This document shows positions 5,368-59,802 of a DNA stretch of 64,000 bases, one piece after another. Source of the stretch: Shewanella colwelliana ATCC 39565 (lineage in GTDB: Bacteria > Pseudomonadota > Gammaproteobacteria > Enterobacterales > Shewanellaceae); contig NZ_JAEC01000017.1 in assembly GCF_000518705.1 (NCBI RefSeq), forward strand, positions 1-64,000, read 5' to 3'. Position 1 is the first letter of the stretch. Each line of letters begins with the position of its first letter. Under the pieces are notes generated by a model that ran no database searches, had not been told where the DNA came from, and was given only the letters and a program-made list of their open reading frames with translations. The position numbers were made by a program, and so were the translations under genes.

Positions 5368-6945
5368 ATGAGCAATATTCATGATCATAAGATCCTAATC
5401 CTAGATTTTGGATCTCAGTACACGCAATTGATTGCCCGCCGTATTCGTGAGATCGGTGTTTACTGTGAGCTTTGGGCCTGGGATGTGTCTGAAGCGCAAA
5501 TCAAAGAGTTTGCCCCAAACGGTATTATCCTTGCTGGTGGCCCTGAAAGCGTGACCGCTGAAAACTCACCGCGTGCGCCTGAGTATGTATTTAATGCAGG
5601 CGTGCCAGTGTTGGGTATCTGTTATGGCATGCAAACTATGTCTGAACAGCTTGGCGGTAAGGTGATCCAAGGTGTTGGTGAAGGCGAGTTTGGTTATGCT
5701 CAAGTTGAGGTTCAAACCACTTCTGCACTGTTTAAAGCCATTGAAGATGCAGTAAGCCCTACCGGTAAGCCGCTGCTTGATGTTTGGATGAGCCACGGTG
5801 ACAAGGTTTCAGAAATTCCTGAAGGGTTTGTGACGGTAGCCAATACTGAAACCTGTCCGTTTGCAGCAATGGCCAATGAAGAGAAGCAGTTTTACGGCGT
5901 GCAGTTTCACCCAGAGGTGACCCATACCCGTCAGGGTAAGCGGATGCTAGAGCACTTTGCGTTAGATATCTGTCAGTGTGAAGCCAACTGGAAGCCATCA
6001 TCAATTATTGAAGATGCCGTTGAGCGCTTAAAGCAACAGATTGGCGACGATGAAGTGATTTTAGGTTTGTCTGGCGGCGTTGATTCATCGGTTGTAGCTA
6101 TGCTATTGCACCGTGCTATTGGTAAAAAACTGACCTGTGTATTCGTCGATAATGGTTTGTTACGCCTTAATGAAGCGGACCAAGTATTAGAGATGTTCGG
6201 CGATCATTTTGGACTTAACATTGTCCATGTTGACGCAGAAAATCGTTTCCTTGATGCCTTAGCCAGCGAAGCTGAGCCAGAAGCTAAGCGTAAGATCATT
6301 GGTAAAGTGTTTGTCGATATTTTCGATGAAGAGTCGAAGAAATGCGCCAATGCAAAGTGGCTAGCACAAGGCACTATCTACCCAGATGTGATTGAATCTG
6401 CGGGCAGTGCAACAGGCAAAGCGCACGTGATTAAGTCGCACCATAATGTGGGCGGGTTGCCTGATGATATGGAGCTGGGCTTAGTTGAGCCGCTGCGTGA
6501 GCTGTTTAAAGATGAAGTGCGTAAGATTGGCCTAGAACTCGGTCTGCCTTACAATATGCTTTACCGTCACCCGTTCCCAGGACCTGGTCTTGGCGTACGT
6601 GTGCTAGGCGAAGTGAAAAAAGAGTATTGTGATCTGCTTCGCCGCGCAGATGCTATCTTTATTGAAGAGCTGCATAAAGCCGACCTATACAATAAAGTTA
6701 GCCAAGCCTTTACTGTGTTTTTACCGGTTCGTTCGGTTGGCGTTATGGGTGATGGTCGTAAATATGATTGGGTGGTATCGCTACGTGCAGTAGAAACAAT
6801 CGACTTTATGACGGCACACTGGGCACATCTGCCTTACGACTTCTTGGGTCGTGTGTCGAACCGCATTATTAATGAGATTGATGGCATCTCGCGTGTGGTT
6901 TACGACATTTCAGGTAAGCCACCTGCGACCATTGAGTGGGAATAA
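5368..6945 (+). CDS. guaA: GMP synthase (glutamine-hydrolysing)
   Basis: The 525-residue enzyme aminates XMP to GMP. The N-terminal class I glutaminase domain shows the triad Cys85 (GICYGMQ), His181 and Glu183 (FHPEVTHT). The ATP pyrophosphatase domain has the P-loop-like [10 protein letters not shown] near residue 232, and the C-terminal dimerisation domain carries [16 protein letters not shown] and ends KPPATIEWE. The length equals that of the E. coli enzyme. An AAAGAGATAAGG ribosome-binding region precedes the ATG. It is the second gene of guaBA and is followed by a strong terminator. Confidence 0.98.
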
Positions 6946-57476: not shown

Positions 57477-59009
57477 TTAACCACCGCAGGTGCCACTTTC
57501 ATAACAGCTTGGTTTACGCGGACAGGTTGAGCCTCGAGAGCAAATTAATCGGGCTTCATTATCTATACCTCGTTCAACCCAATTGATGTTGAGGATTTTT
57601 GCAACGCGCTTGATATCTGTTTTTATGCTGGTGGGTAAGTTCGCCGAGCCACCATTATCAACGCAGACCTTTTTGAGTTCGTGAGCGATGGATTGTGCAT
57701 CGCCACCTTGCGCTTCGATAGCAGGGTTCAGATCTATGCCTGCACACAACACATGAGGGTTGCCCGCTAAATCACTAACACGAATTGATTCGCAGCAATA
57801 GATTTTGGGTTCGGCAGCAACATCCAAAATTGATATCTGCGCTGATGAGCCCGTTGACGCGGCATTAATCATGCGAAACACAGCCCAATGTTGGCAAGGA
57901 TCTTCGACTTGACGCATATTGCCCCAGGGCAGCGGGATACCGTTACCGCGATAAACGGCTTTGAGCTTACCTGGTGAGTACGCATCAAAATAGTGCCAAT
58001 GGCTATAGGGAGAAACCGCTGTCATACGCCGCATGGCAACCGATGGTGAAACCCCCACAAGTTTAGCGACGTCAATTTCATAACCATGGCGGTCGAGCAG
58101 TTGTCTAAACGGGACTTTAGGGCAGAGCAGAGCACCGGCAAAAAAGCTGGACTCAAAATCACGCCACGCATGCAATATGTCCTGGGCATCGACCGTAGAT
58201 GATTGCGGCGCGTTAAAGGTCTCCTCGCCAAGGCTAGTACCGTGGCTGCGACCAGCAATCATCACGCTCTTCAGACCATCTTTATTGTGTAAAACGCTGT
58301 GGCCAATATGGACCGCAAGGTCATATTTAAGGCGGTTGGTATGGGATTTGAGTAACTTATTAAGGTAGATTTTATTAGGCAGCTCAAAGTAGGAGGTGAT
58401 GATATGTTGCTCGCTAGCACCGGCCTCTTTGACTATCTCTAACGGGGCTTTGTTAAACCATTTGATGGTGAGCCCTAGGCGTTCAACAATACCTTGCAGA
58501 TCCTCAAGGCTCAGCGGCATACGCTTAAGCCCTACCTCTTCGGCAGCTCGTTCAAGATCTGGGAAGTGATTTTGGTGATGTTCCTGATGCGCTCTGATTA
58601 ACAGATGAGCAAATTGTCGGCCGCTAATACCGGTTTGTGACAGCATCTCGGGAATGGCAATCTGTAAAATTTCATTAGAAAATAAAAAGCTGGGCTCCAG
58701 TGCCATGCCGCTAATTCCACCACGAGAACCTTTTACTGGCGTGATCGCTTGCTCTTCTGGAGCATCGTCGAGGAACCAGTCGACCTCTTTTTGAAATACT
58801 GCGGCTATTACCGCTAACATGCCCGCACTGGGTACTCGCTTACCCCTTTCTATCATAGATAAGTAGGAGACAGAGGGTGCGGAGTCGGCATCGACTCTGA
58901 CACAGCGAGCCGATAGATCTTCCATGGTCAAATTATTTCGTTTTCTAAGGTTGCGGATCTTAGTGCCTAGAAAATGTGACTTTCTCATCAAGCTGGTTGT
59001 TGTCTTCAT
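57477..59009 (-). CDS. XRE-type regulator with DUF3612-like sensor region and Cys-rich tail
   Basis: The 510-residue protein has an N-terminal helix-turn-helix (LGTKIRNLRKRNNLTMEDLSARC, SYLSMIERGKRVPS; residues 14-65) followed by a 400-residue sensor region. That part contains an IrrE-like stretch with HIGHSVLH and later FFAGALLCPKVPFRQLLDRHGYEI, resembling short-chain fatty-acyl regulators (ScfR/RamB group), where a CoA ester is the usual signal. The tail has five Cys within 25 residues (ICSRGSTCP, SCYESGTCGG), which could bind metal. It is divergent from a malate-synthase-domain gene with a palindromic site between them. I recall DUF3612 proteins next to glyoxylate-shunt genes in relatives. 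Confidence 0.82.
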   Translation of the reverse strand: MKTTTSLMRKSHFLGTKIRNLRKRNNLTMEDLSARCVRVDADSAPSVSYLSMIERGKRVPSAGMLAVIAAVFQKEVDWFLDDAPEEQAITPVKGSRGGISGMALEPSFLFSNEILQIAIPEMLSQTGISGRQFAHLLIRAHQEHHQNHFPDLERAAEEVGLKRMPLSLEDLQGIVERLGLTIKWFNKAPLEIVKEAGASEQHIITSYFELPNKIYLNKLLKSHTNRLKYDLAVHIGHSVLHNKDGLKSVMIAGRSHGTSLGEETFNAPQSSTVDAQDILHAWRDFESSFFAGALLCPKVPFRQLLDRHGYEIDVAKLVGVSPSVAMRRMTAVSPYSHWHYFDAYSPGKLKAVYRGNGIPLPWGNMRQVEDPCQHWAVFRMINAASTGSSAQISILDVAAEPKIYCCESIRVSDLAGNPHVLCAGIDLNPAIEAQGGDAQSIAHELKKVCVDNGGSANLPTSIKTDIKRVAKILNINWVERGIDNEARLICSRGSTCPRKPSCYESGTCGG

Positions 59010-59018
59010 TTTGTAAAA

Positions 59019-59048
59019 TTCACACTGTGAAATTTCTATTGTGAAATT
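59019..59048. promoter_or_regulatory. Operator candidates between the XRE regulator and the MSG-domain gene
   Basis: TTCACACTGTGAA (59019-59031) is a perfect palindrome around a central C. A second TGTGAAATT half-site follows at 59040-59048, repeating TGTGAAATT of the first site. The location next to the regulator start suggests autoregulation. Confidence 0.6.
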
Positions 59049-59199
59049 GTAATGAAAAAAGCGCTAGACTACAAATTAAGCAATCAGGGAAGTTTACTGG
59101 ATGCCCAATTAGCCTAGTTTGGCAGGGTTCATTCACTGAATTCTTGAGATGCAAAACGCGAGCGATACCCTACTAAGTCACTAATAAAAGGATGAGGCT

Positions 59200-59748
59200 A
59201 TGAATATTCAGGCAGCGCAACATAATCTAATAGACCAAAGTATTTACAACTTCATCAAGCAGGTAATACCTATGACATTGAGCAACGGAAATACAGCCAT
59301 AGATCAAACCAACCAAACTAATAATACGATGGTTTATGCCAAGCAGATCCTTGACCAGTACTTTCCACTCAGTGTCGGCTCACACCAGGATGTGTGTAGT
59401 TATGTGATTTACTACAACCAGCTACTCGCCTTTTTTGCCGATGGCACTCAAAGTGGCCTAGAGCAGCCCAAGCAGTTTGTGGCATTAACGGGTCATAAGT
59501 GCGAACCAACCTCTTTGGTACTAAAGAATAACGGCTTCCATGTTGAGATCTCCATCGATCGTCGTGGCACGCAAGGCATTGAAGACCTTGCTGGTATTGA
59601 TGATGTGCAAGTAGAAGCGGCACTCATGACGATTGTAAACAGTGAACAAGCACCGAATAAACGCAGTTGGAGCAGCCTTGTCACTGGACAAGCAGGGTGT
59701 AGTGGTAAGCAGTTTACAGCTAAAGATGGTAGTGACTACCAGTTATAA
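59200..59748 (+). CDS. Stand-alone malate synthase G insertion-domain protein
   Basis: The 182-residue protein corresponds to the alpha/beta insertion domain of malate synthase G (about residues 170-330 of 720). Shared landmarks are the ILDQYFPLSVGSHQDV region, ADGTQSGLEQPKQFVALTGH, LVLKNNGFHVEISIDRRGT, AGIDDVQVEAALMTI and FTAKDGSDYQL. The catalytic TIM barrel and the acetyl-CoA and glyoxylate residues are absent, so it cannot be a malate synthase. It starts at ATG 59200 after AAAGGATGAGG, has its own terminator, and lies opposite the XRE regulator. It may be a regulatory or scaffolding protein of the glyoxylate shunt, or a retained fragment. Confidence 0.85.
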   Translation: MNIQAAQHNLIDQSIYNFIKQVIPMTLSNGNTAIDQTNQTNNTMVYAKQILDQYFPLSVGSHQDVCSYVIYYNQLLAFFADGTQSGLEQPKQFVALTGHKCEPTSLVLKNNGFHVEISIDRRGTQGIEDLAGIDDVQVEAALMTIVNSEQAPNKRSWSSLVTGQAGCSGKQFTAKDGSDYQL

Positions 59749-59773
59749 GCTAGGGGATGCTCGCTAGATAGCA

Positions 59774-59802
59774 AACGCCAGTCGATAGACTGGCGTTTTT
59801 TG
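59774..59802. terminator. Terminator between the MSG-domain gene and menA
   Basis: AACGCCAGTC pairs with GACTGGCGTT across GATA and runs into six T residues. Confidence 0.92.

Follow-up and report, generated by a model that had tools for sequence, protein, structure and literature searches.

Regulators that combine a helix-turn-helix (HTH) domain, an IrrE-like region and a cysteine-rich C-terminus are represented by ScfR, RamB and PrpR. According to excerpts of the respective papers, the IrrE-like core of Mycobacterium tuberculosis PrpR lacks the HEXXH residues and binds CoA and short-chain acyl-CoA, with a 4Fe4S cluster (CX2CX4C) nearby (PMC6765138), and Paracoccus RamB directly controls the glyoxylate operon via two repeated boxes upstream of it (PMC10370305). 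In Shewanella, the aceBA regulators given in excerpts of PMC3223726 are LiuR, TyrR, HexR, PdhR and PsrA, none of which is named there as a DUF3612 protein. The insertion of malate synthase G (MSG), of ~200 residues, is given without a function in the excerpted text of PMC3832036. Here we analyzed a stretch of 64,000 nucleotides from Shewanella colwelliana ATCC 39565 (contig NZ_JAEC01000017.1, positions 1 to 64,000; the window), in which the gene for a DUF3612 regulator with these features diverges from a gene encoding a stand-alone MSG alpha/beta insertion domain protein (SA). The interpretation we tentatively prefer is that the locus represents a glyoxylate-shunt control module in reduced form and that SA is a non-catalytic regulatory protein acting in trans, with the DUF3612 regulator as its likeliest feedback target. 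The features of the locus are as follows.

57477 to 59009, minus strand: DUF3612 regulator of 510 amino acids (aa), with HTH (residues 18-79), IrrE-like (212-329) and DUF3612 (330-504) regions and a C-x5-C-x5-C tail (cysteines 490, 496 and 502); from Pfam and alignment.
59012 to 59048, plus strand: operator of three TGTRAAATT direct repeats (at 59012, 59026 and 59040) with a 14-bp period, 2 bp from the regulator ATG; from comparison of intergenic regions.
59064 to 59074, plus strand: CTAGACTACAA block, which recurs after the operator in many loci of the genus, a putative SA promoter; from reading of the sequence.
59190 to 59197, plus strand: ribosome-binding-like GGATGAGG ahead of the SA ATG; from reading of the sequence.
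59200 to 59748, plus strand: SA, 182 aa, MSG alpha/beta insertion domain; from the open reading frame (ORF), Pfam, NCBIfam, phmmer, dN/dS and alignment.
59332 to 59529, plus strand: PF20658 (MSG_insertion) core of SA, residues 45-110; from Pfam.
59668 to 59745, plus strand: C-terminal segment of SA, residues 157-182, MSG-like until just ahead of the barrel motif GRSLL.VRNVGHLM, where the gene ends; from alignment of SA with paired MSGs.
59773 to 59798, plus strand: terminator-like hairpin of 11 pairs, 3' of SA; from the terminator scan.

An earlier, sequence-only reading of this DNA had described an intact gene for the MSG insertion domain alone, with its own start, ribosome-binding site and terminator, and the gene is indeed of this kind. 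The sole Pfam match of the 182-aa ORF was PF20658 (E 3.9e-18, 65.9 bits with a cut-off of 24.8); there was no Pfam match to the TIM-barrel catalytic domain PF01274. The protein matched residues 165-273 of E. coli MSG at 1e-19 (phmmer) and exceeded the cut-off of NCBIfam NF006511/PRK08951 (208.7 bits versus 173, positions 1-184 of 190), and it fell far below the MSG equivalog cut-offs (94 bits versus 565 and 86 versus 989). The hairpin behind the gene is one of four terminator-like sites in total, a number close to the shuffle mean of 2.7, and the promoter scan gave no promoter-like site between the SA and regulator genes. Two AlphaFold models from four-row alignments had mean pLDDT values of 38 and 33, too low for use.

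SA is under purifying selection and is not decaying. Nei-Gojobori dN/dS was 0.015-0.150 in 22 of 25 SA pairs; 12 of these had dS <1 and covered the same range, 10 had dS >1 (near or in saturation), and the other 3 pairs were undefined with saturated dS. The ratios were 0.020-0.095 for MSG (4 pairs), 0.121 for one pair of the intermediate forms described below and 0.004-0.070, where defined, for the regulator. The SA ORFs were intact in the same-genus loci read, and three named Shewanella loci encode proteins 74-75% identical to window SA. The values for SA indicate a constrained protein rather than a fading remnant, and they bear out the suggestion of the sequence-only reading that the domain is conserved without its enzyme.

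That reading had also proposed looking for the same pair in relatives, where it proved to be the rule. We read all 119 DUF3612 loci of the order above the cut-off (37 from a survey of relatives and 95 from a survey of the order, 13 being in both), placing those with a split (G034) and an over-long (G085) regulator ORF by eye. The divergent gene carried the insertion domain in all 119, as SA in 90, as an intermediate form in 3 and as MSG in 26. Within the genus, the partner was stand-alone in 53 of the 53 loci read, and 33 of 36 genomes had both SA and DUF3612, the other 3 neither. Across the 394 genomes of the order survey, PF20658 was present in 144 and DUF3612 over the cut-off in 95, all of them among the 144. 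The 53 PF20658 matches in the 49 genomes without DUF3612 all lay in ORFs of at least 573 aa (compared by eye), so no stand-alone domain was seen in these genomes.

The linkage extends to the DNA between the two genes. The operator was found with at most 2 mismatches over 27 scored positions in 117 of the 119 loci, the best of 1524 control segments from the same loci having 7, and the remaining two loci also carry the operator, no pair of its repeats having more than 1 mismatch. The palindromic site noted in the sequence-only reading thus coincides with a site that is conserved in every locus, but what is conserved is the triple direct repeat: the palindrome itself (TTCACAcTGTGAA, 13 bp, 59019-59031) was seen by eye in only 13 of 117 extracted intergenic regions. 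In the window genome, the two-repeat operator at up to 3 mismatches had 21 matches, compared with 22 for the reversed control, and the zero-mismatch matches were two overlapping ones at this locus only. When at most 1 mismatch was allowed, 25 of 26 genomes scanned had matches, and the reversed control pattern gave a single match overall; the scan found none in G436, where diverged repeats were seen by eye only.

In other genomes, operators also precede further, distant copies of the domain. A second stand-alone domain gene lies behind an operator in G055 (L035 7847-8574), directly after a full-length MSG gene, and a 150-aa stand-alone domain in G122 has an operator in front. G585, a genome that also has a DUF3612/ICL-MSG locus (ICL, isocitrate lyase), encodes a separate 188-aa stand-alone domain (L262 5048-5614) behind a perfect triple operator (5658-5694). 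In G146 and G098, too, the operator lies ahead of a second match to the domain, judged by position alone. The operator also occurs at the malate synthase A gene aceB: among 16 same-genus aceB loci, 3 (G033, G034 and G008) have a perfect site ~365-370 bp ahead of the start of the longest ORF, 11 have none, and G019 and G011 have one 3-mismatch site each, which we did not count as operators. The operator is also found upstream of aceB in G249, whose main-locus operator has 2 mismatches and was hence missed in the 1-mismatch scan.

Three further observations concern the operator and sites like it. It begins 2 bp from the regulator ATG (59009-59012), which leaves no space for a usual ribosome-binding site, so that the regulator may be translated without a leader or from a later start. 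A 2-mismatch site in the window genome (L201, G000 C17:55164-55186) lies across the start of an ApbE-like ORF, ~180 bp ahead of a 440-aa (open-ended) lipoprotein-like gene, both named from reading of the sequence. An operator-like site in G055 (C1:642871, L250) follows a LysR-type gene resembling the one beside aceB in G249.

The ancestral locus is, judging from the partners found at the same spot, a glyoxylate-shunt operon, and SA a deletion derivative of its MSG, because 26 of the 119 partners are MSGs and 22 of these are followed directly by ICL. The four exceptions are all four loci of one family (f20), and one of the 26 (G265) is a 445-aa ORF ending inside the barrel. ICL followed none of the 83 SA loci with enough flank (5 of the 90 having a short flank and 2 lacking partner coordinates) and none of the three intermediates. 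Complete MSG genes diverge from DUF3612 with the same geometry in other families (728 aa in G046, 723 aa in G038). Six of the 26 paired MSGs were sampled and pass both MSG equivalog cut-offs, so the paired MSGs look like working enzymes. Window SA was matched by paired MSGs at 2e-30 to 9e-41 and by unpaired MSGs at 5e-27 or weaker.

We then aligned 10 SA proteins, 3 intermediates and 26 paired and 13 unpaired MSGs. The alpha/beta domain of E. coli MSG is discontinuous. SA retains approximately the first 25 residues of the same-spot MSG (clear in the window clade, weaker elsewhere, absent in G272), then skips to where the alpha/beta domain begins, continues to its second segment (W.SL ... K.FTAKDG.DY.L) and ends immediately ahead of GRSLL.VRNVGHLM, the point where the barrel resumes. 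The intermediates (G122, L108 1978-2982; G310, L109 5482-6510; G401, L122 1463-2674) are eroded MSG genes of 334-403 aa that retain an MSG-like N-terminus, the insertion domain and a stretch beyond it; their RNVGH motif is altered, and none of the three has a barrel match.

In the insertion-domain tree, one branch (100/99) separates the 13 unlinked MSGs from the 39 DUF3612-linked sequences, and another (98/92) has the 10 SA proteins and 3 intermediates on one side. Parsimony on the regulator tree, which has rows for 92 of the 119 loci, gave 3 changes among MSG, intermediate and SA, and approximately unbiased (AU) tests are compatible with a single clade of SA (p 0.50, or 0.62 when the intermediates are included). 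In an extended tree, a branch (98/88) set apart all SA proteins and intermediates other than the G585 SA. That protein groups with the MSG of its own genome (98/89) on a very long branch, a single origin being compatible with the data (p 0.26). It is 32% identical to its own MSG over 157 residues (4e-18) and 27% to window SA over 100 (2e-8), in searches with different settings. Its match to its own MSG begins at GSL.DALYG, a stretch missing from the aligned SA rows and thus a second hint of a separate origin. The G585 SA is possibly the product of a second, independent excision, and is the best candidate for one. For the window, the sequence-only reading had held that full-length MSG at this spot in close relatives would mark a deletion remnant. 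No such gene occurs in the 53 loci of the genus, but MSG does occupy the spot in other families; together with the retention of SA throughout the genus, this points to a retained deletion derivative and not to a dying remnant.

DUF3612 is uncommon beyond the order: of 368 further genomes of the class that were searched, 5 have it. We read three of these loci, leaving out G770 and G662, whose regulator begins 140 bp from its contig end, too near for a partner to be seen. The regulator faces ICL and then MSG in G585, and malate synthase A and then ICL in G436; in G675, from another order (L226 5727-11750), it diverges from a 137-aa stand-alone domain followed by ICL and monomeric isocitrate dehydrogenase. 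All three intergenic regions show TGTRAAATT-type repeats, those of G436 diverged and recognized by eye. Because the neighbours at all three loci are shunt genes, the DUF3612 family appears by context to regulate the glyoxylate shunt.

SA is most simply seen as a dedicated regulon protein of this putative shunt regulator, because the operator is present in all 119 loci, the linkage is strict and the extra domain copies lie behind the same operator. The comparison of loci supports the descent of the module: an ancestral DUF3612 regulator and its operator drove a divergent MSG-ICL operon, and in the window lineage ICL has been lost and MSG pared to the alpha/beta domain (with approximately the first 25 residues of the old gene also kept in most copies), which remains under purifying selection and behind the operator. 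For its working we propose the following scheme. The regulator, as a sensor of the ScfR/RamB/PrpR type for acyl-CoA or a related signal of shunt demand, would switch the SA promoter, and SA would act in trans as a non-catalytic regulator of the shunt. It would do so by feeding back on the DUF3612 regulator, through binding or ligand presentation, the shunt enzymes being the next likeliest target. We favour the regulator as the target of feedback since it accompanies SA constantly, whichever malate synthases are present, and rank action on the enzymes close behind because G675 keeps SA directly upstream of ICL. A bolder and doubtful extension is that the alpha/beta domain of MSG is an autonomous shunt regulatory module, freed at least twice (in the window family and in G585), each time under a DUF3612 operator, and now reporting to or restraining the regulator.

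Several observations weigh against the feedback scheme. The association of SA with the regulator would also be expected if SA were no more than a regulated gene product. Within the genus, identity to the window proteins is 39-78% for SA and 67-95% for the regulator, and this lower conservation of SA is unexpected for a tight interface. The G436 regulator faces malate synthase A and ICL with no insertion domain, so the regulator family can do without the domain. In G034 (L043 5159-6686) the regulator is split into three ORFs and SA is intact, aceB there having its perfect operator. Single two-repeat operator matches with 0-1 mismatch in G055 (C1:642871), G114 (C9:179050) and G142 (C1:3198415) are near no known SA gene and no malate synthase gene. 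Finally, no operator with 3 or fewer mismatches is present in the aceBA locus of the window genome (L033), which leaves shunt control there putative.

A different explanation is that SA modulates or scaffolds ICL or malate synthase, is produced once the DUF3612 regulon is on, and makes no direct contact with the regulator. We consider this possible, though unlikely. ICL adjoins the paired MSGs in 22 of 26 loci, the G675 SA gene lies directly ahead of ICL and isocitrate dehydrogenase, and at least one malate synthase barrel was found in each of the 54 DUF3612 genomes checked (by eye, never at the SA locus in SA genomes). The choice of an enzyme partner is the difficulty. The sequence-only reading had suggested a malate synthase partner, perhaps one lacking the insertion, and the window genome does encode such an enzyme elsewhere, its malate synthase and ICL being specified by aceBA (malate synthase A on C7, a 547-aa ORF, with aceA). 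However, genomes with SA have malate synthase A alone, MSG alone or the two together, SA occurs at loci of the order without adjacent ICL, and this mixed complement fits no single enzyme partner. Six SA genomes were found to have only MSG (G026, G405, G160, G315, G272 and G329), so a partnership with malate synthase A is not a general rule; conversely, malate synthase A is present in G007, where SA is missing.

A ligand-binding or buffering protein for glyoxylate, acyl-CoA or another metabolite, insulating the pathway without a protein partner, seems improbable to us. Many of the invariant SA residues fall in the stretches PL..GSH, DG...GL..P.QFV and G.H.E, but many of them are also conserved in unlinked catalytic MSGs and may therefore be structural, and the excerpts of PMC3832036 mention no ligand of the insertion domain. 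Far less credible is a non-functional MSG remnant kept by chance or for its promoter only: SA does derive from MSG by deletion, with the full-length gene at the same spot in other families, but its low dN/dS, its stand-alone state in every same-genus locus and the extra copies with their own operator all oppose decay. Hardly any weight remains for a conserved DNA or RNA element inside the SA gene, to which the highly conserved operator next door might point, as synonymous sites vary much more than protein sites and no Rfam family reached its gathering threshold between 56500 and 61500. SA as a regulatory protein of the shunt, feeding back on the DUF3612 regulator, remains the interpretation that we tentatively prefer.

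We found no paper on DUF3612, PF12268, PRK08951, MSG_insertion or PF20658 in the open-access literature, and the matches for "malate synthase-like protein" had, by their titles, zebrafish and fungal subjects only. Titles and abstract starts of the matches listed included none on the pair of SA and DUF3612 regulator. The loci form a natural series, with one operator throughout, that leads from an MSG-ICL operon through MSG alone and partly eroded MSG to the non-catalytic domain on its own. This series makes testable what the insertion domain of MSG does and how a catalytic gene is pared to a control protein, and marks DUF3612 as a likely family of glyoxylate-shunt regulators. The NF006511 label "malate synthase", on proteins without a catalytic domain, could lead to their being miscounted as enzymes in metabolic models.

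The regulator itself scored 342 bits to DUF3612 (PF12268; gathering cut-off 25) and 44.9 bits to HTH_3. Its IrrE-like match (Peptidase_M78) is marginal, with 22.3 bits versus 22; the G675 regulator scored 28.3 bits, and no such match is listed for the G436 regulator. Where this region lies, the window regulator has VHIGH and not HEXXH. Cys490, Cys496 and Cys502 are invariant in all 33 aligned regulator proteins. A search of PDB sequences with the regulator profile returned HTH stretches only, and matches of the regulator in PADLOC, which rest mainly on its HTH, were set aside. The sequence-only reading had called it an XRE regulator, of a kind tied to the glyoxylate shunt or to short-chain acyl-CoA, with a cysteine-rich tail, which agrees with the HTH, the invariant cysteines and the shunt genes in its context. 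By analogy with PrpR, it may sense acyl-CoA.

Overall, each half of the locus resembles a known system and departs from it. SA is homologous to MSG (TIGR01345/PRK02999) over the stretch that runs from the PF20658 core through the final segment ahead of the barrel, but lacks the TIM barrel, the C-terminal domain and, except for approximately the first 25 residues, the N-terminal domain. Window SA belongs to NF006511 (PRK08951), as do the proteins over its cut-off in 32 of the 33 same-genus SA genomes; the name of that family implies an enzyme, but a catalytic domain is missing from the members read here. The DUF3612 regulator shares with ScfR, RamB and PrpR the HTH, the IrrE-like region and the cysteine-rich C-terminus, and glyoxylate-shunt genes adjoin it in relatives; two ScfR proteins align to the DUF3612 profile over 337 columns (hhalign probability 92.6, E 4.5e-7). 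In contrast to these regulators, its C-terminus is PF12268 instead of PF09856, the C-terminal domain of ScfRs, which had no match in the window regulator at E up to 1, and it carries C-x5-C-x5-C in place of the CX2CX4C iron-sulphur motif. RamB acts on two boxes with an 18-bp spacer, whereas the DUF3612 operator consists of three boxes with a 14-bp period, and the usual divergent neighbour of the DUF3612 regulator, unlike that of ScfR, RamB and PrpR, is a gene for a non-catalytic protein.

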